DNA from: Methyloprofundus sedimenti
Lineage (GTDB): Bacteria > Pseudomonadota > Gammaproteobacteria > Methylococcales > Methylomonadaceae
Direction of reading: 5' to 3'
Length of the DNA: 64,000 nucleotides
Assembly: GCF_002072955.1 (NCBI RefSeq)
Contig: NZ_LPUF01000001.1
Location: 591,001-655,000, forward strand
Shown: positions 3,295-20,062 of the stretch, one piece after another
Layout: every line of letters starts with the position of its first letter
Position numbering within the stretch: the stretch's first letter is position 1
Program-made: the position numbers and the translations under genes
Notes under the pieces: generated by a model
What the model was told of the DNA's origin: nothing
The model's input: the letters and a program-made list of their open reading frames with translations, nothing else
The model's database searches: none

Positions 3295-3319
3295 ATGATA
3301 TGTTATATCATTACAATTT
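3295..3319. promoter_or_regulatory. Putative Zur box upstream of the COG0523/ZIP operon
   Basis: TGATAT and ATATCA arms flank a GTT centre at 3296-3310. Aligned with the gammaproteobacterial Zur consensus (GAAATGTTATANTATAACATTTC), 3297-3319 agrees at about 18 of 23 positions. It lies 52 bp before the first start codon of the zinc island. A second site of the same kind is at 8263-8286. The zur gene is not in the window. Confidence 0.6.
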
Positions 3320-3370
3320 AATTTACACTATCACTTACTATTTTTTACTTCAACTGGGAATGAGCATCAT

Positions 3371-3680
3371 ATGAACCGAAAGCCCGATATTTGTTTTTGC
3401 CTCTTAGCGGTCGCGATTGCACCGACCACTTATGCAACCGAACAGCAGAACATGGATGAAAACATCTGCGATTCGACTTCGTATTTGCGCAACTCTGCCC
3501 CGAAAATAGGATTGAGGGTGATTTACTGATGAACGTGTTAAAAATTCATCAATCCATCGTCATGCCTGTGCGTTCAAAAAAAACTTGGGCTGCCCCTTAC
3601 ACGGCATCGATATTGATAAAGCGAGCCACTTACTCAGCTCTGTCCAAGAAAAACCAGCTAACAATATAAAAATTTTATGA
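3371..3680 (+). pseudogene. Decayed small exported protein gene ahead of zigA
   Basis: The first gene after the Zur box. A 52-aa reading frame (3371-3529) begins with a signal peptide (MNRKPDICFCLLAVAIAPTT then YATEQQ). A different frame carries a plausible C-terminus, ACAFKKNLGCPLHGIDIDKA, ending at the TGA of 3678-3680. That TGA overlaps the ATG of the next gene (ATGA), which is the hallmark of a genuine operon gene end. The two pieces imply a frameshift. The protein was small, exported and cysteine-containing. The family is not recognised. Confidence 0.45.
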
Positions 3681-4885
3681 CTGAAAAACGCTTACCCGTC
3701 ACCGTCTTATCAGGCTTTTTAGGCGCGGGTAAAACCACGCTGCTCAATCATATTCTTGCCAATCGCGAGGGCTTGAAAATAGCCGTGATCGTTAATGATA
3801 TGAGCGAAATCAATATTGATGCGACGCTGGTTAAAAATGAAATCACGCTCAATCGTGCCGAAGAAAAACTGGTCGAAATGAGCAACGGCTGTATTTGCTG
3901 TACCTTGCGTGAAGACTTGCTGGTAGAGGTCGGGCAGCTCGCTAAAGCAGGCCGTTTTGATTATTTGCTGATCGAATCCACCGGTATTGCCGAACCGATG
4001 CCGATTGCCGAAACCTTTACCTTCAGAGATGAAGACGGCCTCAGTTTGTCCGATAGTGCCACGCTGGATACGATGGTCACCGTAGTCGATGCGGTCAATT
4101 TCATGCGCGATTATATGGATGCCATGTCGTTGAAAGAACTCAATGCAGGTCTGGGCGAGGACGACGAGCGCAATATCGCTGATTTACTGGCCGAACAGAT
4201 TGAATTCAGCACTGTCATTTTAATCTCTAAAGCTGATTTGATTTGTAGCGATGAGCGGGACAATTTAACCACCATTATTAAATCCTTAAATCCTGAAGCA
4301 GAGATTATTCCGATGGTGATGGGGCAAGTGCCGCTACAAAAAATTATCAACACTGGACGCTTTAATTTTGAACAAGCCGAGCAAGCACCCGGCTGGCTGC
4401 AAGAACTGCGCGGCAACCACACGCCGGAAACTGAAGAATACGGCATTTCCAGCTTTGTTTACGCTGCTCGCAAGCCGTTTCATCCAAAACGGTTTTACGA
4501 TTATTTGCATCGCGACGATTGGGACAACGGCACTTTGCTGCGTTCCAAAGGCTTTTTTTGGCTGGCATCTCGCCCCGAATGGGTGGGTAGCTGGTCACAG
4601 GCGGGCGGCACCATGCAACATGGTTGCGCTGGTCAGTGGTGGGCATCGGTGCCGGAAACGCAATGGCCAGAAGAGTATGTTGCTGATATTCAGGCCCATT
4701 GGCAAGCCCCGTTTGGCGACTGCCGTCAGGAGTTGGTGTTTATTGGCCAAAATATCGATGCCGAGCAAACGCGCAATGAATTGGATCAGTGTCTGTTGAC
4801 TGATGATGAATTATCTGCCGGCGAAACGATATGGAAAACCTATCAGGATAATTTTCCCGCCTGGCTGGCTGATGAACACGCTTGA
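3677..4885 (+). CDS. zigA: COG0523 G3E GTPase, ZigA-type zinc metallochaperone
   Basis: A 402-aa CobW/COG0523 GTPase. It has Walker [16 protein letters not shown] near residue 14, the family CxCC metal site in [12 protein letters not shown] (~72-84), an ESTGIAEP switch motif, a GTPase specificity SKAD (~187), and a long C-terminal CobW_C domain with QHGCAGQWW. Length and sequence fit the ZigA subgroup, Zur-regulated proteins thought to deliver zinc to client enzymes in zinc starvation. Its ATG overlaps the stop of the decayed gene upstream, and its end overlaps the ZIP fragment at 4873. It sits downstream of a Zur box. It appears intact. Confidence 0.85.
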
Positions 4886-5105
4886 TCAGGCTTTTCATGT
4901 CCTTGGCTCGCTATTGTTGATCAGCCTGGCTGTGTTATCGCTTCGGGTTCAATGTCAGCGATTAAAACTTACGTTTACCCGTGCCTTTGTGGCCGTGCTG
5001 CTAGTATTATTGGCCGATGCGGCCATGCACCTGCTTCCCGATGCGATTGCGTGCTTTATTTATGGCACACAAAAACACTACGTCTCAACAAACTTTTATG
5101 AGTGA
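4873..5105 (+). pseudogene. Truncated ZIP-family metal transporter (N-terminal fragment)
   Basis: A 77-aa frame overlapping the end of zigA. It has two hydrophobic segments and the motif LLADAAMHLLPDAI, which parallels the ZIP transporter motif LLGDAFIHLIPDAV found in the next gene. It stops at 5103-5105 after about one quarter of a ZIP protein. It appears to be the start of a first, tandem ZIP gene whose remainder was lost. A role as a free small membrane protein cannot be excluded. Confidence 0.6.
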
Positions 5106-5111
5106 GAAATC

Positions 5112-5895
5112 ATGATCCTTTCAAGGGTAGTCATTGCCGGTACTATTGGCGCCAGTTTTCTGGTCAGCTTTGTCTCATTGTCCGGGCTGTTTGCCTTATG
5201 GGTTGAGACTGAGCGGCTTAAACGCATTATTCCTTATCCGGTTGCTTTGGCGGTCGGTGTTTTTGCTGGGCGATGCCTTTATCCACCTGATTCCCGATGC
5301 AGTCGCGCGGCAAGGCTCTATTTCCACCGTCTGTTTGACGGTATTACTGGGGATGTTTTTATTCTTCGTGCTGGAAAAACTGGTGCGCTGGCGTCATGAC
5401 CATCACATCGATGTGCCCGGTCAAGACGAGGATATTCGCCCCATCGCCAAGATGAATTTAATGGGTGACGCCGTGCATAACTTTGTCGATGGCATCTTGA
5501 TCGGCGGCAGTTTTATCGAGGATCCGGTGCTCGGTTTTACCACTACGCTGGCGATTATAGCCCACGAAATTCCGCAAGAAATAGGTGATGTCAGTGCGCT
5601 GGTGTATGGCGGTTATTCACCGGCAAAAGAGGTGTTGTACAACTTTTATTGCTCGCTGAGCGCCGTTGCCGGCGCGGTGTTTACCTTGCTATCCAGCCAG
5701 TTGGCCGAGTCATCGTTAGTCTTTTTACTGCCGATTGCAGCGGGTGGTTTTATCTACATCGCTGCCACCGACATGATACCGGCGTTGCACGAGCATTCCA
5801 GCATAACCCATCTGGTCGGGCAAACCCTTATCTTTGCTTTGAGCATTGGTTTTATGCAGTCCATCATCATCCTGGAACAATCTTTATTAAATTAA
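5112..5895 (+). pseudogene. ZIP-family zinc transporter with a frameshift
   Basis: Inner-membrane importer of the ZIP family (zinc and related divalent metals). Frame 1 gives the N-terminal ~50 aa from the ATG at 5112. The rest continues in another frame from about 5260 (LLGDAFIHLIPDAV) through the TM4 motif HNFVDGILIGGSF and the TM5 motif HEIPQEIGD to a stop at 5893. The shift falls at GTTTTTGCTGGGCG (~5257-5270) and is consistent with loss of two bases. Without it the protein would be ~260 aa, the normal ZIP length. It could be a true mutation or a sequencing error in a T run. It is in operon with zigA and DUF1826. Confidence 0.75.
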
Positions 5896-5905
5896 TGAGG
5901 TCAAT

Positions 5906-6574
5906 ATGAGCGCTAACGCACACCATTTAGTACCCCCCTTTTATTTCAGATCTTACCTGTCTGATGAGTTGGCTGATTTAACACAAATCTACCAGCCCGC
6001 CATCAATCTTTGTGTGGTGCAGCGTAAAGTGGATAACGAGCTGAAACGCTTTGTCGAACATTTGTTAAAACAACCCCATCCAGTCGGTTTTGTAGAAATC
6101 ATTAATGCTACCTCGTTCGATTTCATTAACTTATTGCCGCAGACAGAACATTTACCGGGTTACCAGGCATTTTGCAAAGACGTCGCCCATTTAGTGGCGA
6201 TGTATTGCGACTTATTCGATCTGAGCCATGTTGGATTGCGTTTGCGCACCCTGGATCATGCCATGTGCCCCAGATTTCATACCGACGCAGTGACTTGCCG
6301 ACTGGTTTGTACCTACGGCGGTGTTGGCACCGAGTGGCTGGAAGAGCCACATGTTGATCGACGTAAACTGGGTACGGGGTCAGGTGGTTTAAAGGATGAA
6401 TGCTCAGGGCTGATTATGGATGCTGATGCCATCCAGACCATGCCCGCTTATGCGATTGGATTACTGAAAGGCTCGCGTTGGGAAGGCAATGAGCAATATG
6501 GCGCAGTACACCGTTCGCCGCAATTAACGCCCGACTCACCGAAACGTCTGTTATTGACGCTGGATTTTGCCTGA
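5906..6574 (+). CDS. DUF1826 family protein
   Basis: A 222-aa soluble protein of the DUF1826 family, recognised by LRLRTLDHAMCPRFHTDAVT, CRLVCTYGGVGTEWL and the C-terminal HRSPQLTPDSPKRLLLTLDF. The His/Asp/Cys-rich middle resembles the core of iron/2-oxoglutarate-type jelly rolls, but no function is established. In other proteobacteria DUF1826 genes sit beside COG0523 genes in predicted Zur regulons, the same arrangement as here. It starts 11 bp after the ZIP stop with a GAGG-like ribosome site. It appears intact. Confidence 0.8.
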   Translation: MSANAHHLVPPFYFRSYLSDELADLTQIYQPAINLCVVQRKVDNELKRFVEHLLKQPHPVGFVEIINATSFDFINLLPQTEHLPGYQAFCKDVAHLVAMYCDLFDLSHVGLRLRTLDHAMCPRFHTDAVTCRLVCTYGGVGTEWLEEPHVDRRKLGTGSGGLKDECSGLIMDADAIQTMPAYAIGLLKGSRWEGNEQYGAVHRSPQLTPDSPKRLLLTLDFA

Positions 6575-6585
6575 GATGAGGAAAA

Positions 6586-6830
6586 ATGACCGTATTAACA
6601 CTATTTACCGAACGCGATAAGAAATCTGCCGAATGATCGAACGCACAGAAACCTTGCCTATCGGCGCCAACCTGCCCTGGCCGGATGTCCTTGAGCATTT
6701 GCCGTTCAACGCCGACGCCCTGTTGTTGCTGGTTGATCAACTAGGTCCCGCTTGTCACACCGGACGGCGCAGTTGTTTTTACAACGCTGTGCGCGGCAAC
6801 TGGGTCGAGATCATCAGCACACTATAATAT
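6586..6830 (+). pseudogene. Remnant of a phosphoribosyl-AMP cyclohydrolase (hisI) paralogue
   Basis: After a good ribosome site, a 16-codon frame (MTVLTLFTERDKKSAE) stops at 6634-6636. The next frame (6633-6827) ends with ADALLLLVDQLGPACHTGRR and SCFYNAV, the C-terminal signature of HisI (GPACHTGxRSCF), which contains zinc-ligand cysteines. The N-terminal two thirds of HisI is missing. HisI is a zinc enzyme, and extra hisI copies occur with COG0523 genes in zinc-starvation loci, so this reads as a decayed zinc-sparing paralogue. The first 16 codons do not resemble HisI. Confidence 0.55.
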
Positions 6831-6872
6831 TACAGAAAATAATTCTTTATAACCGCTATCCTGGAGAACCCA

Positions 6873-7862
6873 ATGCTTGATCCTAATAGCTTCACACCTG
6901 TGCCCGTAACCATTTTGACCGGTTTTTTAGGTGCTGGAAAAACGACTTTGTTAAACCGTATTTTGTCTGAACAGCATGGTCATCGTATTGCCGTCATTGA
7001 AAATGAATTCGGCGAAGCCGGCATTGATAATGATCTGTTGATTCAGGGCGAAGAGCAAATTGTTGAAATGAACAATGGCTGCATTTGTTGCACTGTGCGC
7101 GGCGATCTCGTGCGCATTCTGGGCGAGTTGGCTGAAAAACGTGAAAACGGTTCATTGATTTTTGAGCGCGTAATAATTGAAACTACTGGGCTTGCCGATC
7201 CTGCCCCGGTCGCGCAAACGTTTTTTGTCGAACAAGATATTGGTGAATATTATTTGCTCGACGGGGTTATTACTGTCGTTGATGCCAAACATGCCCTGAA
7301 ACAACTTAGCGAGTGTCATGAAGCCGAGGAACAAGTGGGTTTTGCTGACCGCTTATTATTATCCAAAACCGACCTGATAACGCCAGAAGAAGTGATTGAA
7401 CTAGAAACGCGATTGCGCCTCATCAACGCCCGTGCGCCTATTGCTCATGCGCATTTTGGTGAGACCGACATCAGTGAAATTCTCGACATACGCGGCTTTA
7501 ATCTCAATGCCATCCTGGAAATTGAACCTGACTTTCTGGGCGATGTCAGTCATGCGCACGATGCCGGTATCACGTCTTTTGTCTACCGTACTGAGCAAGC
7601 CTTTGATGCGGCAAGAATCATCGGTTTTATGGATGTGATGGTCCGCGATTACGGTAATGATTTATTGCGCTATAAAGGCATCGTGCATATTGCGGGTTGT
7701 GATCGTAAGGTGATTTATCAAGGCGTACATATGCTCCTCGGAGACAGTATTGGCGAGCTTTGGGCAGCTAATGAAGTCCGCCAATCGGTGTTAGTCTTAA
7801 TAGGTCGTAACCTGCCTAAACAAGAAATCTACACGGCATTAGACAGTTGCAGGGTTATTTAA
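6873..7862 (+). CDS. COG0523 G3E GTPase, second copy
   Basis: A 329-aa CobW/COG0523 protein. It has Walker [17 protein letters not shown] (~16-30), CxCC in [15 protein letters not shown] (~66-80), [11 protein letters not shown] (~106), SKTDLI (~167) and a shorter C-terminal CobW_C region ([15 protein letters not shown] onward). It is of a different subgroup from the 402-aa protein at 3677, being closer in length to YjiA/YeiR-type members. GTP hydrolysis is thought to drive metal (zinc) delivery. One base separates it from the fhcA-like remnant, suggesting the two were coupled and that the amidohydrolase was the client; this is inference. Confidence 0.83.
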
Positions 7863-7863
7863 T

Positions 7864-8202
7864 ATGTTAACACGCTTAACAGGCGGGCGACTTTTCGATC
7901 CTGCCCAAGGATTAAATGGAACGATTCAAGATGTGTGGTTTCGTGATGGCATGATAGTTTCCCCGACTGAGGTCGGAGCGTTGCCAGATGCGGATATTGA
8001 TGTCTCCGGCAAAGTTGTCATGGCCGGAGCCATTGATATTCATAGCCATATCGCCGGTGGCAATGTTAATACCGCACGTTGGTCAACCACATAAACCGGC
8101 TACCGTTATGCACAAGCGGGCTACACCACCGTCGTCGAACCTGCCGTGCTGCCAGCCAATGCGCTAGATGCGCATTTACAGATGGCCGACATTCCGAATT
8201 GA
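7864..8202 (+). pseudogene. Remnant of formyltransferase/hydrolase complex subunit A (fhcA) paralogue
   Basis: The frame begins MLTRLTGGRLFDPAQGLNGT and continues through VMAGAIDIHSHIAGGNVNTA, the N-terminus and metal-binding HxH motif of FhcA/FwdA amidohydrolases of the H4MPT pathway. It then has a TAA at 8092. The same frame continues as TGYRYAQAGYTTVVEPAVLP to a TGA at 8200, matching FhcA sequence ~40 residues further on, so an internal deletion created the stop. About 450 C-terminal residues are absent. FhcA is a zinc amidohydrolase normally encoded with fhcBDC. A copy in a Zur-type operon is unusual. Confidence 0.7.
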
Positions 8203-8403
8203 AGCTGAGTTTCCTCTAAGGTTACTTTTTCACTGCTAAAATATTTTTGTAAACCCTCGACAAAAATGTTATGTTATAACATAACAAAAATAAAAGACAA
8301 TATGATGTCTTGCAAACGGTAAGCGAATAGCGTTCAAAACGGATCAGTTTGTTTATACCAGATCCTAACAATCGCCAGTTTTACTGGTAGCTAAAGAGAT
8401 GAG
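8203..8403. promoter_or_regulatory. Zur box and leader before the TonB receptor
   Basis: A perfect 20-bp palindrome, TGTTATGTTATAACATAACA, lies at 8267-8286, 117 bp before the receptor start. Extended left to 8263 it matches the Zur consensus GAAATGTTATANTATAACATTTC at about 18 of 22 defined positions. It should repress the receptor and the two exported proteins behind it when zinc is plentiful. The rest of the leader shows no clear -10 assignment. The receptor's ribosome site is GAGATGAG directly before the ATG. Confidence 0.75.
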
Positions 8404-9250
8404 ATGTACCACTCAGATTTTAACCGAATAATAATATTAGGTATTTGCATGTCCAGTCCAAACGGTTTTATTTCAGTGTCTTTTGCCGAACCCGTTGATC
8501 TGGACGTCATGGAAATCCACGGCGCACCCATCAACACTATTCAATCACCCAAGGAAAGTTTATTGCAGGGTGATGCGCTACGATTAAAACAGAATGATAC
8601 CTTAGGCAAAGTACTGGAAGGGGAATTAGGCGTGAGTAACGCTTCTTTTGGTCCGGGTGTCGGCATACCCGTTATTCGCGGCTTTTCTGGATCGCGCGTG
8701 CGGATGATGCAAAATGGTCTGGGTAGTCATGATGCGTCTAGTTTAAGCCCGGATCATGCGGTTGCGATAGAGCCAATTTTTGCAGAAAGCATTCGTATAT
8801 CACGCGGCTCGGAAAATATTCGTTATGGTGGCAATGCCATTGGCGGTATTGTTGAGGTTGAAGATTATCGCATCCCTGAGCGACGCCAGGAACAACTTCT
8901 GAGCGGTTGGCTGGAAAGTCGCTACGATACCAATGGCAATGGGACGCACTCGGCATTTAGGATGAATCTGGAAAAGGACTGGCTGGGTATGACCATGGGA
9001 GGCTTTTATCGACATCGTAATGATACGCAAATACCGGGTTCCACCATTGACGAGAATAATATTGAACAACAATTCGGCTTAACCGACATAAATAATTCAA
9101 AGGGCACGATACCGAATACCGACAGTGAAAGTTACGGCGGTTTTGCCGGTGTTTCCTGGTTAGGGGAAAAGACGATGGCCGGTATGTCGGTCAATTATAT
9201 CGACAATGAATACGGTGTACCCAGTGGCAGTAATGCTTTAGACCCCAATA
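8404..9250 (+). pseudogene. ZnuD-like TonB-dependent receptor, 5' part (split by insertion element)
   Basis: Outer-membrane metal receptor. The visible part holds a signal peptide (to ~residue 28), the plug domain (~30-165: SNASFGPGVGIPVIRGFSGS, ENIRYGGNAIGGIVEVED) and the first barrel strands. Translation runs into the inserted element and stops at 9265-9267. Joining base 9250 to base 11357 (removing the element and one TA) gives an uninterrupted 729-aa receptor. The layout is that of the zinc receptor ZnuD, but the extracellular loop at the break (SGSNALDPN-SLDGLELILPQ) is acidic, where ZnuD has a histidine-rich loop, so the substrate could differ. Confidence 0.85.
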
Positions 9251-9480
9251 TTACATATCCCACTTAAATAGCGAACTTCATTGAGTGATTAACAAAGCTT
9301 TGAGCATTATCTGTACTGATGCATTTCAACCCTTCGGCATAAGCTTGATATAACGCTTCAACGGTTCGTGGTCTTTGTTTGCGTAAGTACTGTTTAATTT
9401 TATTCCATGCTAATTCAATCGGGTTAAGGTCAGGTGAGTAAGGCGGTAGGTAAATAAGCTTTGCTCCTGTCTTTTGAATA

Positions 9481-10535
9481 GGCTATGTCACCGTTAAGTA
9501 TTGAAAATCACCCAGAGCAGAATGTAACAATTGCTCAGGGGTTAGATTGTGGTTCCGATCCATAATTCTGCACCAAGCCAAATAATTAGGTAAATACTTG
9601 GTGGCTACACCATGAAAGCGGTCTAGCCATGATTTAAAACGGTGGTGGTATGCATTGACATTTTGTATATGATAGGCCCCTTTAGTCACCCGCTGCCCTT
9701 GACTCATGTTAACGATTTCATGAGATACTTTTTCAGCTTTACAAAATGCACATAAGTTGGATTGCCATCACTCACAAGGAGGGCATCCTGGTCTAGTATT
9801 GGCTTTAAATGCGTATCAAGAACAATTTTGCTTATTGGGCCATTACCTGTCACAAAATCTACGGTTTGTTTTGAGCGATCACGAGCAATTAAAATGCAAA
9901 TTTGCTCATCAGAAATCCCTCGCTTAGTCGCACAGCCCCCTCGTTTCCTTGGTTGACGATTGAGATGGCGTTCTCCTTTATGTGACTCAAGTAAGTAGGT
10001 TTCATCAGCTTCTGTAATGCCATGAAGAGCACTGGGACGATCCTGCTGAATCCAGCTTAAAAAACGGTGCCGCCATCGAAAGGTTGTATTTCGATGCACA
10101 TTAATTTCTTTAGCTGCCTGCCGGACAGTCAATGATTCTGCGATAGCTCCTAAGTAATCAAGCCACTTTGACTTGAGGCGTAGATGAGCAAGAGGCGTTC
10201 CTGTCAAAGCATTAAATGTCTTTTTGCAGGCTTTACAGCGGTAGCGCTGAAGGCCATCTTTTATTCCATGCCTGTGGCTTTCGGTATGGGAGCAATGAGG
10301 GCATTTACCTTTGCTATCAAATATTGTTTCAATTAAATCAAAAACCTTAGGTTCGTCCTCTAGTTGATCCAGTGCTTTCGTTAGAACAGTGCGTTGATGG
10401 TGGTCAAGTTGATTTATTTCGGAAATGAACTCTAAAAACTCTGGGGCTTTCATAACTATCTCCTTAATTTACATGGGCTTTATTTACTTATACGCTCTTG
10501 TTATATGAAATTCCATACTTTACGGTGACATAGCC
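9481..10535 (-). mobile_element. IS1595-family element nested in the IS630 element
   Basis: 1055 bp with perfect 14-bp terminal inverted repeats: GGCTATGTCACCGT at 9481-9494 and ACGGTGACATAGCC at 10522-10535. The flanks carry an exact 8-bp target duplication, TTTGAATA, at 9473-9480 and 10536-10543. Eight-bp duplications and a transposase with an N-terminal zinc ribbon fit the IS1595/ISXO2 family. Confidence 0.92.
9483..10453 (-). pseudogene. IS1595/ISXO2-type transposase with a one-base frameshift
   Basis: From the ATG at 10453 the first frame (249 aa) has an N-terminal zinc-ribbon (CPHCSH...CKACKKTF), a helix-turn-helix, and the ISXO2-like catalytic core ([31 protein letters not shown]). 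It then shifts and stops at 9704. The other frame continues [20 protein letters not shown] and then [17 protein letters not shown], the standard C-terminus. One missing T in the T run at about 9740 explains the split. The element is therefore probably not autonomous. Confidence 0.85.
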
Positions 10536-11356
10536 TTTGAATAAGATCCTTAATTTCATCTACTTTATGAACTGAGGCATTATCCATCACAACATAGTCA
10601 CCTTCAGCGAGTAAGGGGCAAAGAAAATGCTTCAAAAAGTAGAGGAATACAAGTCCTGTCATGGTTCCTTCAAAATTTAAGGCGGTTTTCATACCGGCTG
10701 ATGTCATTGCCCCGACCATACTTATACGCTGCCCTTTAGCAACCGGCGCTTCATCATAAACACGCTGATCTGACGGTGCTCGCCCATAAAGAGGTGAGAG
10801 ATTCAGTCCTGCGCCCATTTCATCAAGAAAAATGAGCTTATCGAGCGATATATCGGCGATTTCAGTGCAATAGTCTATTTTTAGCTTTTTAGTTCGGTCA
10901 CAATATTTAGCTGGATCGTACGGACTTTTTTTTATATCGAATATTCATACGCTTAAGAGCTCTATCCATTGAACTTTTCCCCATGCTAATACCAAAGTGT
11001 TCAGCATATCGGTCACAAAGATCATTTAGTGTCAAATCAGGCTTTTTTATTAGCCATTCTTTTATCTCAAGAGCACCCGCTTCATCTACTTTTGGTGCAA
11101 CATGCCCGCCTACTTTTTTGGCTGCAATCATGCCAGTTTCCTGGTAATGTTGCCATAAGGTATAAACAAAAGAATAAGAAACAGCGAAACGTTTAGCTAT
11201 ATCAGGTTTACTTTGTTTGTCTATCTCAATAGCATTGAGCACTTTTTTTCGAATATCGACTGAGTAAGGGGCTGGCACAAAAATATGATTGATAACGGAG
11301 AACTGGGAAAGCTATAGTACATTAAAATTCAATTCATTAATACGGGAAATGTAATA

Positions 11357-12699
11357 GTCTGGATGGTCTTGAGTTGATACTACCACAACTTGAGGATATA
11401 AGCGGTTTCGAGGATGTTTTAGGAAAAGAGGCCTTGTATCCTGATATACGCATAGACCTGAAAAACATCCGCTATGATTTTAAAGGCGAATGGAACGATC
11501 CGATAGAGGGTATTCACAATATACGTTTTCTTTATGCCTATGTTGACTATCAACATACAGAAAACGAAGGCGGGTCAGTTTTTACAATGTTTGAAAATGA
11601 TACCGGAGAAGGCCGTTTTGAAGTCGATCACCATTTTGGCGAGGATTTCACCGGCACACTTGGCGTGCAATGGACGGATCAGGATTTTTCCGCGTTGGGT
11701 ATAGAAACCTTTGTACCGGAAACCAAAAAAAATTCCTGGGGCATATTCACCACCCAAAACTATCAATGGAATGATTGGCTCTTTAGCGGTGGGGTTCGTT
11801 TTGAACAGACAAAGATAGATCCCGATGCAGATAGCCTTAGTTTACGGGGCAGCGCATTACCGCCTGCCGCCTTACCGGATGAACTGAACTTTAACGCGGT
11901 ATCAGGTTCGCTGTCAGTTACCTGGAGCATCATCCCCGAACAGGCCGATATTTATTTGGCGTTTGACTATGCGCAACGTTCACCCGATATACAGGAACTT
12001 TTATCATTCGGCCCGCATTTATCGACGCGTACCTTTGATATAGGCAATGTCGCTTTAAATAACGAAACCATGCAGCGTATTGACCTTGGATTCGACTGGC
12101 AATCCGATTGGCTGAACGTCAAACTGAACGGCTTTTATAACTGGATTGATGATTTTATCTATCAACGCAATACCGGTTTATTTTACGAAATTGATAATGA
12201 AGTGATTCGTCAGCGTTGTGTCAGTGCTGCAGAATGTGTGCCTATTTACGCCTATAACCAGCAAAATGCAAGGTTTGTAGGTTATGAGGCGGAAGCCAGT
12301 ATGCCGGTCTTCGAGTCATCCTTTGCCACCGTCTCGTTGACCGTGTTCTCTGATTATGTACGTGCACGTTTTAAAAATGATGATGTGCCTCGCATACCGC
12401 CGTTACGCTATGGCGCAGAATTAAATGTTGGTAATTATGACTGGAACACAAGCTTACGTTATTCGCGTAGCGAGGCGCAACGCCATAGCGGAGCAAATGA
12501 GACTGAAACCGATGGCTATAACCTGCTCAGTTTCAGTGCTGATTATCATTGGGATGATACAGGCTGGGGAGATCTATGGGTATTTACCAAAGCAAGCAAT
12601 CTATTGAACGAGGAAATCCGCAATCCTGTCTCCTTTTTAAGAAATTATGCGCCCGAGCCAGGCTTTAGCTTTGTTGTCGGCTTTCGGGCAGATTTTTAA
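11357..12699 (+). pseudogene. ZnuD-like TonB-dependent receptor, 3' part
   Basis: The remainder of the receptor, in frame from 11357 (SLDGLELILPQ). A TTG at 11374 could start a 441-aa product, but it would lack the signal peptide and plug. The barrel strands are clear (IRIDLKNIRYDFKGEW, LGVQWTDQDFSALG, DYAQRSPDIQELLSFGPHLS) and the protein ends with the aromatic terminal residue expected of an outer-membrane barrel (VVGFRADF). No other mutation is seen. The two exported proteins follow directly. Confidence 0.85.
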
Positions 12700-12720
12700 T
12701 AATAGTGGTACCAATTTATT

Positions 12721-14079
12721 ATGTTGATAAATATATCAATCACACAAACGCTTTCTATCCTGTTGATGTTCGCTTTTGCGCCTATGGCGACAGCGGCTTC
12801 CATCCTGCACCTGGACGTAGAAGTCTGGGGCGAGGACGGTGCTTTATTTGCCGGCTATTGTCAAACACCTGGTGTAGCAGGTTGTGATCTGGATGGATTA
12901 TTTGCCGAGCTGGGTTTACCGGAAGACAATTTGCCAATAGAAGCGGCCAGCGGCAAGCTGATTTTTATTGCTGATTTTCAAGATTTGTCCGGTGGTGACT
13001 TTAAAACCAAAAATCCTGGGTTTCGCTCCGTTCAAAGTGCCTTATTGCCCAATGAACTGCTCAGTTACCGGGCTTTGGGTCATTTGCGCTATTGGGATAC
13101 GATGCAATCGGCCTGGGTGCAAGCGCCAGAATATGTGCAGATCGCGCTGTATGGGGGATTGGAAGCACTTGATGGACTGGCTACCGATTATGCGGCTTGC
13201 GCAGGTCAATTGCTTTGTTTTGACGCAGATAATTTCAATACCGAAAGCGCTACGGTTTTTTCAGGCGATGGTATTTCTGGCAGTCCGGAACTGGTTGTCG
13301 ATCTTACTAACCAGTCAGGCATTTTACATACCCATCTAAGTTTTTTTCTGGAAAACCGGCAAGGTGAAACAGGCGGGCCAACAGGCGCATATTTAATTGA
13401 AATGCAATTACTGTCGAATGCGCGCGCCATTCCAAGTACACCATTTCTGATACTTTTCAATGCGGGTCTGGACAGTCGGCAATTATCCGAGGCCATATCG
13501 GCTTTAGTTGCTACTAACAACACTAACCCGCCTATTGTCACTTTACCTGATAACCTGGTTAACTCCCTCTCTATTTTAGGCGATGTGGATTTGGACGGTG
13601 ATGTGGACAGAATGGATGTCGCCTTGATATTACTGGCCGAACAAAACCGGGAAGTAGTTCAGGCCGATAACATCATGTTTGATGTCGATGGCGACGGTCT
13701 AATTAACCGACAGGATGCTCATCATGCTAAAAGTCTGTGCAATCTAAGATTGTGTCGTATTCCCGAAGCCGGACAAATAGACCCAGTTATGCAAGTTGCC
13801 GTTTTCGACAGCAACACTGGACAACTGGCGTTAAATGACGTGCAAATCAACACGCTACATTATCAGGCAGTATTGCAGCAAACCGGTGAAAATCTTTTTA
13901 CTTTGCAAACACATGACTCTGCCAGGACACGTTATACCTTACCGGCAAAATACAATGCCCATAGCGGCTTACTTGAAATACCTGCATTATCGGTAGAAAA
14001 CCGATATTTTCGCGTCATATTGCGAAATATCGGAAACTTCACTTTTCAATTGGAAACCATTGAAGAAATTGAAAATTAA
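12721..14079 (+). CDS. All3515-like exported protein with dockerin-type calcium loops
   Basis: A 452-aa secreted protein with a signal peptide (~1-26). Residues ~78-265 (FIADFQDLSGGDFKTKNPGF, YRALGHLRYWD, GILHTHLSFFLE, GAYLIEMQL, FLILFNAGL) are homologous to the following gene and resemble the All3515 family of Zur-repressed exported proteins of cyanobacteria. Residues 288-340 hold two dockerin/EF-hand-like loops (DVDLDGDVDRMD, DVDGDGLINRQD). The C-terminal ~40 residues again match the next protein (FRVILRNIGNFTFQLETIEE). It starts 21 bp after the receptor. A metal-binding surface role is inferred only. Confidence 0.65.
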   Translation: MLINISITQTLSILLMFAFAPMATAASILHLDVEVWGEDGALFAGYCQTPGVAGCDLDGLFAELGLPEDNLPIEAASGKLIFIADFQDLSGGDFKTKNPGFRSVQSALLPNELLSYRALGHLRYWDTMQSAWVQAPEYVQIALYGGLEALDGLATDYAACAGQLLCFDADNFNTESATVFSGDGISGSPELVVDLTNQSGILHTHLSFFLENRQGETGGPTGAYLIEMQLLSNARAIPSTPFLILFNAGLDSRQLSEAISALVATNNTNPPIVTLPDNLVNSLSILGDVDLDGDVDRMDVALILLAEQNREVVQADNIMFDVDGDGLINRQDAHHAKSLCNLRLCRIPEAGQIDPVMQVAVFDSNTGQLALNDVQINTLHYQAVLQQTGENLFTLQTHDSARTRYTLPAKYNAHSGLLEIPALSVENRYFRVILRNIGNFTFQLETIEEIEN

Positions 14080-14103
14080 CCTCCTCTATAAGGAAAATAA
14101 ATT

Positions 14104-14877
14104 ATGTTTAAAAAAGCGATTATTTCATCTTTGTTATTAGCATCCAGCTTCACAGCTCTAGCCGAAGAAGAAGCTCATTTGCATGCGGGTGATTTACAAC
14201 CCTGGCGCATTGGCGCTGAAATAAATCTCAATAGTCAATTATTCGAGGTAGACTTTGGCGACCTGGGTGGCGGCGCATTCGCAACCGATGAACCGGGTGT
14301 TGATGTCAATGTAGAAAAAGGTGCCTTTCAACCCGGCAACTGGTTACAGTTTCAACTCCAAGGTCAATTACTATTCTGGGATGGCGACGAATGGACGACT
14401 GCAATGCCTAACGAAGAACATGTGAATATCATTGATGCTCTGGATAACACGGTGAGCATCGATGCTCATGGCGTTTCTGAAGGCTTAGCCGTCATTGGCG
14501 AGATTGATGCCAACGGCGCATTACATGCGCATATTGACTTTTCTCTACTAGATGCCAGTAATAATTTGAATGGTAGCCAGGGTGCTTACAGAATAGAACT
14601 CAAACTATTTGAGTCGGCTGCTAATAGCGATCTATCAGTTTCTTATGCGGCAAAGCCGGTGGTGATTGTTTTCAACCAAGGACTGGAAGAAGCCGAATTT
14701 GAGCATGCGATCGAAGCATTGGGTGATGATCCACATGAAGCAGTCATCTATGATGATGTAAGCGGCATTTTATCCATCCTTGAAGTCAAGGCCTTCGGTA
14801 GGCATTACAAAGTCGAATTACAAGACCAGGGCGATTTCCTCTTTAAATTAACGGATGCGGAAGAAATATCAGAGTAA
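14104..14877 (+). CDS. All3515-like exported protein, short paralogue
   Basis: A 257-aa protein with a clear signal peptide (MFKKAIISSLLLASSFTALA) and a mature N-terminus EEEAHLHAGDLQPW with clustered His/Glu. The pattern HLHAGDxxPW...FEVDFGDLGGGAFATDEPG followed by LHAHIDFSL and GAYRIELKL matches the All3515 Zur-regulated family as I know it. It is the compact paralogue of 12721-14079 without the calcium loops, and lies 24 bp behind it with an AAGGAAA ribosome site. It is probably the last gene of the Zur-controlled receptor operon. No catalytic motif was seen. Confidence 0.65.
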   Translation: MFKKAIISSLLLASSFTALAEEEAHLHAGDLQPWRIGAEINLNSQLFEVDFGDLGGGAFATDEPGVDVNVEKGAFQPGNWLQFQLQGQLLFWDGDEWTTAMPNEEHVNIIDALDNTVSIDAHGVSEGLAVIGEIDANGALHAHIDFSLLDASNNLNGSQGAYRIELKLFESAANSDLSVSYAAKPVVIVFNQGLEEAEFEHAIEALGDDPHEAVIYDDVSGILSILEVKAFGRHYKVELQDQGDFLFKLTDAEEISE

Positions 14878-15499: not shown

Positions 15500-16450
15500 C
15501 TACTCAGTTGAACAGGCGATAGATTTTCCCGCAAACTGACCAAAAGCCCGACTTCCATCACCTACGTTGATTCGATTTATTTCTTTATCAGTTTGGCTGT
15601 TAAATACGCTTAAACTTCCATCAAACCAATTCAGCACAAATAAATGCTGATTTTCCTCATCCACAGCGATATTTTCAGGATACGCTCCCGTTTTTAAGGT
15701 GCGGATAATTTTTTGAGTTCTAGAATCAAGTACACTCACCGTATTTTCCAGTTGATTGCTCACATAAACTTTGTGATGTTCCCGATCTACTGCAACACCA
15801 TATGGCATGCGTCCTACGCTGATACGTTTTATTTCGGTTAAATCCGCTAAATCAACAATACTCAGGGTGTTGCCTTGCGAATTTGCGATATAGGCAAATT
15901 TATCATCCATTGCAAGTGCAAAAGGTGCCTTTCCGACCGCTATGCTTTTAATCACTTTAAAGTAGTGAGTATCTAATACCGAGATGCTATTATCCTCTCT
16001 ATTCAACACCCATACTTGTGATTCGCAGGCATTTGTAGCAATTCCTGCTGGCGACTTTCCAACTGTTATTTTTTTTATCATACGTCCTGTACCTGGATGA
16101 ATGATCTTAACGGTATTGCTGGACCAGTCGCTAATAAAAAGCAGTTTACTAGCAAAAACAGCGCCAAAAGGGCTACCTCCGACACTTATGTGCTCTAAAG
16201 GAATTAGCTTTTCATTGTCAATAAAACTGATCATGCCCAGCTCGGGATAGGTAATTGCTAACCACGGATTATGCGAGCTAATAGCAATACCAGCAGGACC
16301 TTTGAGGGTAGGAATCGTGGTTTTTAATGTTAAATCAGTGCGTTTAAATACGCTAACACTCTCACCCTGCTGCTGATTAATATAGAAATACGGATTACTC
16401 GCTACGATAGAAGAAAAACCACACAACAAGGCAAAAGTTAAAAGCAACAT
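15500..16450 (-). CDS. YVTN-type beta-propeller protein (exported)
   Basis: A 316-aa protein with a signal peptide (~1-18) and at least six repeats of ~42 residues. Each ends in patterns such as ISVGGSPFGAVF, ITVGKSPAGIAT, IAVGKAPFALAM, ISVGRMPYGVAV and LKTGAYPENIAV: a seven-bladed NHL/YVTN propeller in the periplasm. It starts 2 bp after the stop of the mxaD-like gene, so it is the last gene of the kinase-regulator-mxaD operon. Propellers of this class accompany PQQ-alcohol dehydrogenase loci. The exact role is unknown; a scaffold or binding partner of the dehydrogenase chain is possible. Confidence 0.8.
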   Translation of the reverse strand: MLLLTFALLCGFSSIVASNPYFYINQQQGESVSVFKRTDLTLKTTIPTLKGPAGIAISSHNPWLAITYPELGMISFIDNEKLIPLEHISVGGSPFGAVFASKLLFISDWSSNTVKIIHPGTGRMIKKITVGKSPAGIATNACESQVWVLNREDNSISVLDTHYFKVIKSIAVGKAPFALAMDDKFAYIANSQGNTLSIVDLADLTEIKRISVGRMPYGVAVDREHHKVYVSNQLENTVSVLDSRTQKIIRTLKTGAYPENIAVDEENQHLFVLNWFDGSLSVFNSQTDKEINRINVGDGSRAFGQFAGKSIACSTE

Positions 16451-16452
16451 AT

Positions 16453-16977
16453 TTATTTTTCTAGTGTCTCTTTCAGGCCTTGTAATCCATTTTCAATAAA
16501 GCTGTTCATTGCTTTAACGGCTGCTTCATCATTGAGTCTTTTGGGGGGCGTGTTGCCTGTATCACCTCGATAATAACGACTCTTCCATTTAACTTTAGTA
16601 TTATTATCATCTTCAGCAATTAATTGAATTCCTGTGGTATAAGAGCTCACTGGAAAGACATCTGTATTTTCAGTCTTTAAACGATAATTGTATTCATGAT
16701 CAGCATCGCTAAAATAATCCAGACCTTCCTCTAATACACCACTTTCCATCGTTATACGCCGTTCGCTGCCAGATTCGTTTTTACCATCTCCTACGCTGGA
16801 TATAACATCAGGATGCCAATTTGAAATATCATCAAAGTTTTTTATCACTGCCCAGACCTTGTTTATAGAAGCGTTAATAATAATACTTTTATCGGCTTTT
16901 TTAGGCGTTGGTCCGTGAGCGTTAGCTGCCATTGAAATAACTAAAAAGGGAATTATAAATAGTGTGCTTAATTTCAT
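16453..16977 (-). CDS. mxaD: MxaD-like SRPBCC protein
   Basis: A 174-aa periplasmic protein. The signal peptide MKLSTLFIIPFLVISMAANA precedes HGPTPKK. The SRPBCC/START-like fold is shown by INASINKVWAVIKNFDDISN (helix-grip start), WHPDVISSV, GSERRITM and the C-terminal helix ending GLQGLKETLEK; the motif YRGDTGNTPP is typical of MxaD. MxaD helps electron transfer between methanol dehydrogenase and cytochrome cL. The ATG at 16977 is preferred over 17013 because the signal peptide begins there. It lies between the response regulator and the YVTN gene, away from the mxaF locus at the left edge. Confidence 0.8.
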   Translation of the reverse strand: MKLSTLFIIPFLVISMAANAHGPTPKKADKSIIINASINKVWAVIKNFDDISNWHPDVISSVGDGKNESGSERRITMESGVLEEGLDYFSDADHEYNYRLKTENTDVFPVSSYTTGIQLIAEDDNNTKVKWKSRYYRGDTGNTPPKRLNDEAAVKAMNSFIENGLQGLKETLEK

Positions 16978-17067
16978 GTTCAACTCGTGTAAAAAGCGGC
17001 TATTATCAAACATAAAACAGGGGCTGTAACGGGAATTATTCTTGAGTTTGTGCGGGAATATTTCCCT

Positions 17068-17712
17068 TTAATGCTTTATTATCCCCAGCAATATTGCAAT
17101 ATGTGCTAATTCGGCAATGCTAGATACTTGTAGTTTTTTCTTAATCTGAGTGACGTAGTTTGCTACCGTTTTATAGCCTAAACACAATTCATCGGCTATT
17201 TTATGCGCTGTTAAGCCCTTAGCCAATAATCGGAAGACATCAAACTCTCGTGCCGAAAATGTTTGTGCGATGGCTTGAAAATCATGTTCAGAGACTTCAT
17301 CAGTAATTTTATTGAGAAGCCCATGCTCAACGTAACGCTGCCCATTCTGAATACCTTCTATGGCGTCTGACAAAATTTCAGGCGCACTGTTTTTTGTAAT
17401 ATATCCTTTTGCACCTGCATTCAAAGCTCGGTTAACATAGACCTGTTCATCATGTATACTAAATACCAAAATATTTACCTTTTCATCACGTTGCACAAGA
17501 CGTTTGATAGTTTCCAGGCCTCCGATACCTGGCATAGATAAATCAAGCACAATAATGTCCGGCTGACAGGACTGATAAAGCTGAATGGCTTGCTCTCCAC
17601 ACTCTGCTTCAGCGATCACTTCTATATTGGGTGAAGTCGCTAGCAGCAACTTAAACCCCGCTCTTACAACAGCGTGATCATCGACTAACAAAACTTTAAT
17701 TTTACTGTTCAT
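17068..17712 (-). CDS. mxaX: MoxX-like LuxR/NarL-family response regulator
   Basis: A 214-aa response regulator. The receiver has D11-D12, phosphoacceptor D57 in IIVLDLSMPGIGG and a lysine in KGYITKNS. The LuxR helix-turn-helix covers ~148-208 (FSAREFDVFRLLAKGLTAHK, YKTVANYVTQIKKKL). It overlaps the kinase gene by 4 bp (ATGA), so the two form a pair. This kinase/regulator arrangement with a MoxY-type sensor corresponds to the MoxXY/MxaXY systems that control methanol dehydrogenase. It is a close relative of the mxaB product at 1999. Confidence 0.78.
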   Translation of the reverse strand: MNSKIKVLLVDDHAVVRAGFKLLLATSPNIEVIAEAECGEQAIQLYQSCQPDIIVLDLSMPGIGGLETIKRLVQRDEKVNILVFSIHDEQVYVNRALNAGAKGYITKNSAPEILSDAIEGIQNGQRYVEHGLLNKITDEVSEHDFQAIAQTFSAREFDVFRLLAKGLTAHKIADELCLGYKTVANYVTQIKKKLQVSSIAELAHIAILLGIIKH

Positions 17713-19016
17713 AATAGAGGAATTTCTGCCTTAATTTGCAGTCCTTTGTTTACTTGAGACTGTATTTTAAAATCACCGCCTAATAGCTTGATTCTTTCTT
17801 TCATACCTAATAGACCAAACCCGGATGAGAGTTGGTCGAGATCACAGCCTAGACCATCATCAGTAATTAATAAAATAAGTTTATCAGAATCAGGTTTGAT
17901 TTGAAGACTGATATTGACCTGAGTGGCCTGTGCATGGCGGATAATATTAGTCAGACTTTCTTGAATCACTCGAAATATTTGTATCACGATGGTTCGGTCT
18001 ATCTGGTCGACTGCATCATCATAATGCAAAGTAAACATAGTCGGTGTATTTCTGACTTCCCAATGGTGAAGTAAATCATCCAGCGTGGCTTTCAAGCCTA
18101 ACTCTGTCAATATTAAAGGATGTAACTGTTTCATCATTGAGCGTACAACAGTCATTAAATGGTCGCAAATTTCAATCATGGATGTGGTTATTTTCTGCGT
18201 ATCTGTTTTTTCATGTGCCGCAGTTACTGCCATCACTTTGATCGCCGTCAATGATTGACCAAACTCATCATGTAATTCTTGAGATAAGCGCTGCCTTTCT
18301 TCTTCCTGAATTTCCAAAGAATGCTGAGTCAAAGCTCTGTTTTGTTTTTCTGTATTACCCAGCACATCTGTCATATGATTAATTGCTTTGGCTATGTCAT
18401 CATATTCTTGGGTAGAAAAATCAGCTAATTTCTTCTGGTAGTCTCCTGTTTCAATACCTTTAAGATGTTCAATGATTGAATGGATGGATTTTATGGTTTT
18501 ATTAAACACTAATTGAACTGAAAGGAATGTCAAAAATACCAGAGCGAATAGAGAGGTAAAAAACGCAATACTTTCTTGCCAGACTTCTGAAATTTCATCC
18601 ATCGGGTTGGCTTGAATAATCAGCTTCAAAGGTATGTTGTTAAGCGTTTCAATCGGATATTCTATTTTAGGGTATTCACCGAGCACTAAATTGATAAACC
18701 AGTCAGGCGGTGTTTTATCTAATTCATGCAATTGAGGGTGATCAGAAATATTCACAATCTCCCCTGACGATGTTTTCAGTTGAATATTTAAGTGCCGTGT
18801 CTGTTTCAGGCGACTCAAACGAAACATCCAGTCAGTTTGATGGGTTTTATTCGACCCTATCCCAATTTTAATTAACTGCAATGCCAGGCTAATGGAAGAG
18901 TCAACCTCGTTACTTACCGATTGTCGCGCTTGCCAAATACCAATAGAGCCTCCCAGGAAAAGAATACACAGCGAAATCAATAAAATTCTGACACTAATTT
19001 GGTAACGTAAACTCAT
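17709..19016 (-). CDS. mxaY: MxaY/MoxY-like sensor histidine kinase
   Basis: A 435-aa membrane kinase. TM1 is ~8-28, followed by a periplasmic domain of the LapD/MoxY type (~30-145, SVSNEVDSSISLALQLIKIG), TM2 ~147-168 and HAMP (~165-220). A HisKA_3 H-box has the phospho-histidine in RLSQELHDEFGQSL. The HATPase domain has N box VIQESLTNIIRHA and G boxes DDGLGCD and GFGLLGMKERI. MxaY in Methylotuvimicrobium governs the lanthanide switch between mxaF and xoxF, and the MoxY domain makes this the likely counterpart. ATG 19016 has an AAGGA ribosome site; the longer frame to 19082 is unlikely. Confidence 0.78.
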   Translation of the reverse strand: MSLRYQISVRILLISLCILFLGGSIGIWQARQSVSNEVDSSISLALQLIKIGIGSNKTHQTDWMFRLSRLKQTRHLNIQLKTSSGEIVNISDHPQLHELDKTPPDWFINLVLGEYPKIEYPIETLNNIPLKLIIQANPMDEISEVWQESIAFFTSLFALVFLTFLSVQLVFNKTIKSIHSIIEHLKGIETGDYQKKLADFSTQEYDDIAKAINHMTDVLGNTEKQNRALTQHSLEIQEEERQRLSQELHDEFGQSLTAIKVMAVTAAHEKTDTQKITTSMIEICDHLMTVVRSMMKQLHPLILTELGLKATLDDLLHHWEVRNTPTMFTLHYDDAVDQIDRTIVIQIFRVIQESLTNIIRHAQATQVNISLQIKPDSDKLILLITDDGLGCDLDQLSSGFGLLGMKERIKLLGGDFKIQSQVNKGLQIKAEIPLL

Positions 19017-19108
19017 TGGGAAAATTTCCTTATTTGTTGTGGCTATTCCAGCCATACACTGAAAGGTGCTATCTTGACACACTGTTATAATTTTACACGG
19101 GGTATACC

Positions 19109-20062
19109 ATGAAGCAGATTTTAGCGGCTGTCTTATTTTTAATCAGTAGCCAGGTTAATTCAGAAACACTCTATGTCACACTGGAAAAAGATAACGCTTT
19201 GGCTGTTGTCGATCCCATTGCAGGTAAACTACTAAAAACGATTGCCATTGGTCAACGTCCTCGCGGTATTGTATTAAGTAAAGATCAGCAGCAACTCTAT
19301 ATTGCCACCAGTGACGATGATACCATTCAAATTATTGATATTAATACCTTAAAAGCAGTGGGCACGTTGCCGTCAGGGGAAGACCCGGAAACCTTTGCAA
19401 TGAACCCGTCGGGTGATCAGCTTTATGTCTCGAATGAAGATGATAGTCTCGTTACTGTGATTGATATTAATAATGCTAAAGCCATAAAAACCATACCCGT
19501 AGGTGTAGAACCAGAGCCGGTAACCGTCAGTCCTGATGAAAAATGGGTGGTCAGTGCTTCTGAAGCTACCAATATGGTACATTGGATAAACCGGAAAACA
19601 TTAACCGTTGAAGATAATACACTGGTAGATCCACGCCCCAGAGGCTTAAGCTTTAGCGCAGATAGTAAACGACTGTGGGTGACTTCTGAGATGGGTGGAA
19701 CCGTAACCGTGCTAGACGTAGCAAGTCGTACCAAAGTTAAAACCATTAATTTTGAAATCCCTGGCGTAAGCGCTGACAAAATCCAGCCAGTTGGTATTAT
19801 TGTGGACAAGGAAAATCATTGGGCTTTGGTGGCATTAGGACCGGCTAATCGTGTCGCGTTAATTAATGCCCAATCATTAGAAGTGGAAAACTATTTTTTA
19901 GTAGGACAAAGAGTCTGGAATCTGGCTTTCTCACCTGACCAAAAGCGGGTATATAGTACCAACGGAGTGAGTAATGATATATCTATTATTGACCTGAATT
20001 TGATGAAGGTCACTAAATCCATAGCTGTAGGGCGCTATCCCTGGGGGCTAGTGGTTAAGTAA
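19109..20062 (+). CDS. PQQ-dependent catabolism-associated beta-propeller protein (TIGR03866 type)
   Basis: A 317-aa exported protein with a signal peptide (~1-18, ending VNSE) and seven YVTN blades, e.g. SLYVTLEKDNALAVVDP-type starts, IAIGQRPRGIVLS, LPSGEDPETFAMN, IPVGVEPEPVTVS and IAVGRYPWGLVV at the end. Conserved DNTLVDPRPRGLSFSADSKR and VALGPANRVALI segments match the family that genomically follows PQQ alcohol dehydrogenases. It is divergent from mxaY with a 92-bp gap. This is a different subfamily from the propeller at 15500. Function is not established experimentally as far as I know. Confidence 0.82.
   Translation: MKQILAAVLFLISSQVNSETLYVTLEKDNALAVVDPIAGKLLKTIAIGQRPRGIVLSKDQQQLYIATSDDDTIQIIDINTLKAVGTLPSGEDPETFAMNPSGDQLYVSNEDDSLVTVIDINNAKAIKTIPVGVEPEPVTVSPDEKWVVSASEATNMVHWINRKTLTVEDNTLVDPRPRGLSFSADSKRLWVTSEMGGTVTVLDVASRTKVKTINFEIPGVSADKIQPVGIIVDKENHWALVALGPANRVALINAQSLEVENYFLVGQRVWNLAFSPDQKRVYSTNGVSNDISIIDLNLMKVTKSIAVGRYPWGLVVK

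Follow-up and report, generated by a model that had tools for sequence, protein, structure and literature searches.

A second fhcA gene in a zinc island

Why does the remnant of a gene for formaldehyde oxidation lie among genes for zinc homeostasis? The question is raised by positions 3295-14877 of a 64,000-nucleotide stretch of Methyloprofundus sedimenti (Methylomonadaceae), hereafter the window, which covers C1:591001-655000 of a 4.29-Mb genome (G000; G, C and L codes stand for genomes, contigs and loci). This span carries, in order, ZigA, ZIP, DUF1826, a hisI relic, a second COG0523 gene, an fhcA relic, a ZnuD-like receptor and two exported-looking proteins; the ZIP, hisI, fhcA and ZnuD-like genes are broken. 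The frame at 7864 is what is left of a second gene, fhcA2, for the subunit of formyltransferase/hydrolase (Fhc) that bears the metal, the A subunit; Fhc is the enzyme of the last tetrahydromethanopterin (H4MPT)-linked step of formaldehyde oxidation. We consider it likely that the locus is a decaying, Zur-controlled zinc-starvation island and that fhcA2 supplies a zinc-starvation A subunit, which keeps formaldehyde oxidation going.

The relic (7864..8196, + strand) represents the N-terminal quarter of the gene, with an internal loss and stops, and starts directly after the end of the second COG0523 gene (COG0523b) at 7862. Positions 7864-8091 match TIGR03121 (5.4e-24; 84.3 bits, for a fragment), with a further piece containing stops downstream, and together the pieces correspond to residues 1-134 of a 560-residue intact relative (73%). 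An earlier note on this DNA, made from the sequence alone, had read the frame as a decayed FhcA paralogue and had named homologues outside FhcA as the outcome that would overturn it; the TIGR03121 match places the frame within FhcA. The housekeeping fhcA of the same genome is intact at C3:482050-483660, where fhcB, fhcC and fhcD adjoin it.

Intact relatives and their neighborhood

A profile from a 12-row FhcA2 alignment (A1) was searched against 151 genomes of the family. It recovered 35 full or near-full-length FhcA2 places in 34 genomes, all with at least 991 bits, while the other FhcA listed reach at most 759 bits (E 1e-225 or better); fragments below the E threshold (G000, G109, G052, G140 and perhaps G124) are outside the 35 places. 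At least two zinc-homeostasis genes lie within 8 kb in 34 of the 35 places versus none of 24 housekeeping fhcA loci, 20 of these controls being from FhcA2-bearing genomes. The housekeeping loci have fhcB near in all 24 cases and fhcC and fhcD in 23 (the B, C and D queries were confirmed by family), and none of the three genes was found within 8 kb of FhcA2 in any of the 35 places. FhcA2 is thus a member of the FhcA sequence family that stands outside the fhc operon. The sole exception to the zinc linkage is G138:C146 (L058), whose neighbors are genes for PAPS reductase, GcpE, IlvD and a class-III aminotransferase.

The most frequent neighbors in the 35 places are DUF1826 (33), ZigA and COG0523b (30 each), ZIP (28), COG0523c (26) and ZnuD (20), followed by folE2 (18), zur (8), hisI2 (7), thrS2 (5) and queD2 (4). 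The fullest operons combine ZnuD, ZigA, ZIP, DUF1826, folE2, hisI2, thrS2, queD2 and two further COG0523 genes, with near-perfect Zur boxes upstream; L071 is the fullest, and its HisI2, ThrS2, QueD2 and FolE2 were confirmed by NCBIfam. COG0523b and fhcA2 frequently abut or overlap (5876/5873 in L012, 7309/7311 in L051), while in L071 and L081 fhcA2 comes after DUF1826, with COG0523b further on, and gene orders vary among loci. Intact COG0523-fhcA pairs behind Zur boxes are present in many genomes; the earlier note had named the lack of any intact copy near COG0523 genes as a second outcome that would overturn its reading. Comparative genomics thus bears out its prediction, and zinc sparing, regulation and subunit exchange are proposals. 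In such lines fhcA2 would probably be transcribed together with the COG0523 metallochaperones, zinc importers and zinc-sparing paralogues around it.

A scan of named genomes was restricted to the best 80 of 531 confirmed loci, which is not a census and overlaps the 151-genome set (L058 = L129 and L076 = L147 are the same loci, and L080 and L148 share sequence). Among its 62 FhcA2-type loci, 58 have at least one zinc-type neighbor and 54 at least two; two of the eight remaining loci span about 3 kb, and L167 carries its own box. Zinc contexts occur in Methylobacter, Crenothrix sp. D3, Methylomonas, Methylicorpusculum, Methylocaldum, Methyloprofundus and Methylophaga, as well as in Methylotuvimicrobium buryatense 5G (L162), in Methylococcus capsulatus Texas (L142: zur, znuD, DUF1826, fhcA2, folE2), in a Methylophilaceae genome (L175) and in Filomicrobium (L176). 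The copy of L132, labelled Methyloversatilis, groups with Methylocaldum and is possibly mis-binned. The fhcA2 genes of three laboratory methanotrophs, M. buryatense 5G, M. capsulatus Texas and Methylomonas sp. LW13, have no internal stops. Within the last 23 loci of the scan (L166-L188), fhcB lies beside fhcA in 11, and 7 are HIMB59-like.

Membership in FhcA is shown by profile scores, with intact FhcA2 at 606 to 679 bits against TIGR03121 (L071, L175, L176, L177; one at 643; cut-off 392.75). In a class-wide search of 369 genomes, the operonic FhcA of L168 (865 bits) ranked above L177 of the FhcA2 clade (815 bits), so that outside the family FhcA2 cannot be told apart by its profile score alone. 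In a phylum-wide search of 398 genomes the best hit had 764.7 bits and no FhcA2 of the family's kind was found, although distant members could be missed.

Two groups of loci were set aside. The HIMB59-like marine alphaproteobacteria (L179-L184, L186) were at first read as zinc-linked, with hisI adjacent in all but L179, and were rejected since fhcA is single in the four genomes checked and their rows fall outside the FhcA2 clade; in L180, L182 and L184 fhcA adjoins a pair of folE-like and hisI genes on the other strand. Some genomes of the family have an extra fhc-type operon whose FhcA is highly divergent (L016-L019; 41-44% to the relic), and this operon was considered unrelated to zinc.

Zur boxes

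Each of the two Zur-box matches of the earlier note is a pair of overlapping sites (no strand assigned to either). The pair at 8266..8287, upstream of the ZnuD-like gene, matches the consensus at 15/16 and 14/16 positions and includes the only one-mismatch site of the 4.29-Mb genome. The pair at 3295..3316 matches at 13/16 each and lies 377-382 bp upstream of ZigA, a distance that is mostly 14-54 bp in relatives. We scored them with a matrix of 36 sites from relatives (35 distinct, one entered twice) excluding the window's own. The training sites had been chosen by their fit to an E. coli-type consensus, so the matrix tests relatives weakly and the window and housekeeping controls fairly. The downstream sites scored 27.4 (8266) and 24.7 (8271), values reached by the best score of none of 200 Markov-1 random windows, and the upstream sites scored 20.6 (3300; reached in 3/200) and 15.7 (3295; 21/200). 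By these scores the downstream box is strong and the upstream one weaker, at a moderate level. A genome-wide count at up to three mismatches was uninformative (30 matches versus 38 in a reversed control).

In relatives, boxes reach 16/16 upstream of zur or ZigA and 15/16 upstream of ZnuD. A site of at least 18 bits is present in 31 of 35 FhcA2 stretches versus none of 24 housekeeping fhcA stretches, and the top matrix score among 19 operonic fhc loci is 13.2; the position of the box before the operon was judged from individual sites. Smaller arrangements also have boxes: in L167 fhcA2 stands alone, 85 bp downstream of a 13/16 box, and L177 has a hisI2-fhcA2 pair behind 15/16 boxes. Another palindrome, TGATATGATATATCA-like, was observed in Methylophaga clusters (L164 3422, L161 194, L163 165) and is perhaps the Zur box variant of Methylophaga.

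The window genome encodes a Zur-like regulator at C1:1236016 (NF008646, 141 bits, below the cut-off of 167). Immediately 5' of it is the frame of a ZnuD-like receptor (NF038289 1e-77, below cut-off), and about 2 kb before the regulator there is a two-mismatch box.

Phylogeny, selection and the metal site

In a quick tree of 68 rows, the 39 FhcA2 rows form one clade (SH-like approximate likelihood-ratio test, SH-aLRT, 88). A careful tree built from 50 of the 68 rows supports the 27 FhcA2 rows at 83/89, or 98/93 for the 26 rows without L175, and separates the housekeeping Methylococcales FhcA at 100/99. The contig-end row L078 was excluded from ligand and tree counts, and L106 was dropped because of a wrong reading frame. 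L175, L176, L177 and the structure 6s6y are long rows, and their placements are less sure for that reason. The clade extends to Methylophaga and a few genomes labelled as beta- or alphaproteobacterial. The ratio of nonsynonymous to synonymous substitution rates (dN/dS) is 0.03-0.16 in 13 sampled pairs, which are under purifying selection.

An FhcA2 matches structure 6s6y_A at 3.2e-157. H57, H59, K176, H229, H258 and D377 (6s6y numbering), the presumed metal ligands by the roles described for FwdA/FhcA and amidohydrolases, do not vary in 39/39 FhcA2, 10/10 housekeeping and 11/11 operonic sequences. FhcA2 also retains 107 of the 122 columns invariant in 21 other FhcA, and has positions of its own, held in 97% (Q15, L175, M246, A315): L175 adjoins the ligand lysine and A315 stands where 19 of the 21 other FhcA have Arg. 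The sequence argues for the same reaction and is silent on the metal. Bacterial FhcA holds zinc. A binuclear zinc centre is described for archaeal FwdA in an excerpt of PMC13397495, and the part consulted of PMC3087415 (2011) names only another protein of this pathway as zinc-containing.

Possible roles of FhcA2

We suggest that when zinc drops, Zur would come off the DNA and fhcA2 would be made. The protein would most likely fill the A-subunit place beside FhcB, FhcC and FhcD from the housekeeping operon and, metallated by its COG0523 partner or with another metal, would allow formaldehyde oxidation to continue. A true subunit exchange, where FhcA2 displaces FhcA1 on FhcBCD under zinc starvation using a non-zinc metal or zinc from the neighboring COG0523 partner, is put forward only tentatively. 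FhcA2 may use another metal, may receive zinc from a chaperone or may merely add copies, and a zinc-independent FhcA2 is just one reading among several. In the earlier note's idea of zinc sparing of C1 metabolism, the FhcA identity and the COG0523-fhcA pairs held up, and strict sparing is only a possibility, the presumed ligands being identical in all 39 FhcA2 sequences aligned.

The conserved ligands also suit an account where FhcA2 is an ordinary zinc enzyme, the extra copy only adding A subunit to compete for scarce zinc with the metal unchanged. Copy number is indeed offered as an alternative for ligand-keeping HisI, ThrRS, QueD, CysRS and AmiA paralogues in the portion consulted of Haas et al. 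2009 (PMC2770081). Against it, FhcA2 is an old separate lineage rather than a recent duplicate of FhcA1, and it keeps its own positions in 97%; this account is possible, if somewhat doubtful. Those same positions, A315 and the others, together with the lack of fhcB, fhcC or fhcD within 8 kb in all 35 places, could instead indicate a stand-alone amidohydrolase acting on a different substrate and useful in zinc starvation. Such a change of job seems unlikely considering the retention of 107/122 invariant columns, scores well above the TIGR03121 cut-off, and the presence of a further FhcA in all 25 genomes with FhcA2 that were checked, HIMB59 types aside.

It could also be that fhcA2 merely hitch-hikes in an exchanged cluster, outside the zinc response. 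The islands do seem partly exchanged, since the relic has 86% similarity to the G014 and G053 copies versus 56% to that of G020, from the same genus, while the housekeeping FhcA of G000 has 84.5% identity to G014 and 89.9% to G020. This pattern suggests exchange of islands, and the window DUF1826, with only 63% identity to its G014 homologue, shows that a single recent transfer does not account for the block. A chance neighborhood is nevertheless very improbable given the linkage in 34 of 35 places in one family, the varied gene orders, the recurrence of linkage in Methylophaga, the Methylophilaceae genome and Filomicrobium, and the low dN/dS.

Several observations weigh against a role of FhcA2 in zinc starvation. 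With all presumed ligands kept, nothing in the sequence indicates a lower zinc need. FhcA2 occurs in only 34 of 151 genomes of the family, it is dead in the window's own genome, at least three other copies seem broken or shortened (L059, L062, L085), and among the 35 places the one in G013 is broken; this patchy presence and the broken copies indicate that fhcA2 is dispensable. Two copies of the clade have no zinc neighbors (L058, equal to L129, and L133). Most training sites of the matrix come from the same stretches as the FhcA2 box counts, and several Methylophaga loci, as well as L175 and L176, have no good box of the E. coli-type pattern. Support at the base of the clade is moderate, with long outlying rows.

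If FhcA2 does displace FhcA1 under zinc starvation and uses another metal or zinc from its partner, the metal need of the formaldehyde step in methane oxidation would be flexible, and a central energy pathway would have a subunit exchange linked to Zur. On the reading that we favor, what is backed up is a metal-dependent subunit in formaldehyde oxidation, the route of carbon and energy flow on methane and methanol; fhcA2 has reached several methylotroph lineages. The intact copies of relatives suggest that one-carbon metabolism joins the short list of processes protected against zinc shortage, which would imply that zinc supply can be limiting for methane oxidation under natural conditions.

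Other genes of the island

The remaining genes, all on the + strand except for the transposase pieces, show different levels of preservation. The two COG0523 GTPases of the earlier note are both open frames. The one at 3677..4885 is a ZigA-type zinc metallochaperone (NF038288, 659.8 bits, cut-off 600) with 87% identity to its G014 homologue and dN/dS of 0.09; COG0523b at 6873..7862 (PF02492 2.4e-56, PF07683 8.3e-20) has 91% identity to that of G014 and dN/dS of 0.08. The DUF1826 gene (5906..6574, PF08856 3.4e-63) is open as well, in agreement with its first annotation. Instead of tandem ZIP genes, we found one broken zinc transporter gene (5112..5895, PF02535), matched by an intact ZIP query (tblastn) at 5112-5312 and 5263-5892 in different frames; the open reading frame 4803-5105 had no match to this query, the sole test made on it. 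The hisI2 relic (6633..6827), recognized as a remnant from the outset, has lost its middle and kept both ends: only positions 50-74 of PF01502 are matched, and the tblastn pieces represent residues 3-38 and 96-132 of a 138-aa intact HisI2.

The ZnuD-like TonB-dependent receptor was also found as expected, in two parts split by transposase genes: a 5' part at 8404..9267 (PF07715; NF038289 1e-34, below cut-off) and a 3' part at 11374..12699 (PF00593; NF038289 3.3e-67, below cut-off), with the receptor match spanning 8428-9249 and 11359-12696. The interruption contains IS1595-like (PF12760/PF12762) and IS630-like (PF13358/PF01710) transposase pieces at 9486..11278 on the - strand.

Two exported-looking proteins with no assigned family follow the receptor and are homologous to each other (E 7e-13): 'All1' (12721..14079), with PF00404 at threshold only and a signal peptide judged by eye, and 'All2' (14104..14877), with no Pfam or NCBIfam match. 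They had been called All3515-like, a membership that we reject because neither matches NF040463 up to E 5, in a search where the positive control L076 matched at 3.8e-83. We regard them as a candidate new zinc-acquisition pair. In Methylomonas-type relatives (L072, L076, L077, L146, L151), homologues of the two flank a second ZnuD-like receptor, and a 15/16 Zur box precedes the smaller homologue at L146 6071. All3515/ZepA-type PEP-CTERM proteins were observed between ZigA and ZIP in the fhcA2 clusters of L076 (11042-11869, assigned by NF040463) and L077 (10347-11195, by sequence resemblance only). Downstream of the island, at 15500-20062 of the window, beta-propeller (YNCE-like) proteins lie beside a response regulator of the LuxR type and a histidine kinase whose periplasmic domain is of the LapD/MoxY kind.

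Comparison with known systems

To our knowledge, FhcA2 is the first Zur-linked paralogue in C1 or energy metabolism. Among the papers listed by full-text searches of an open-licence library, none links fhcA with Zur or COG0523; two apparent matches were discarded, since 'Zur' is the German word in PMC13300288 and 'methanotroph' belongs to a reference title in PMC7689651. The Zur-linked paralogues beside COG0523 genes in the consulted part of Haas et al. 2009 (PMC2770081) are HisI, PyrC, Cam, HemB, CysRS, ThrRS, AmiA, QueD and DksA, plus FolE2; their functions concern translation, amino acids, nucleotides, cofactors, the wall and carbonic anhydrase. That part does not name FhcA as one of these families, and 'formylmethanofuran' has no occurrence in the main text.

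FhcA2 resembles these paralogues in its clusters with Zur boxes, COG0523 and DUF1826 and in having a housekeeping copy elsewhere. Some accepted members keep their metal ligands, and FhcA2 is similar to the HisI, ThrRS and QueD paralogues in this respect (PMC2770081, in part). The PyrC paralogue of Zur clusters is likewise an amidohydrolase, although it lacks the conserved zinc-binding residues, whereas FhcA2 retains its presumed metal ligands. Unlike all of them, FhcA2 is a subunit that belongs to a complex in an energy-yielding C1 pathway, and it is so far found only in genomes with a further FhcA (25/25 checked). Compared with housekeeping FhcA, it shares the sequence family (TIGR03121), length, presumed ligands and most invariant columns, and differs in its separate clade, its Zur-box context away from fhcBCD and its A315, L175, M246 and Q15. 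The All3515/ZepA zinc exoprotein system, as described in an excerpt of PMC10957091, has a member inside the fhcA2 cluster of some relatives such as L076, unlike the two exported proteins of the window. With a housekeeping copy elsewhere, a cluster of zinc genes and a Zur box upstream, and with HisI2, ThrS2, QueD2 and FolE2 carried in the same L071 operon, FhcA2 is best filed among the Zur-linked paralogues of zinc enzymes.

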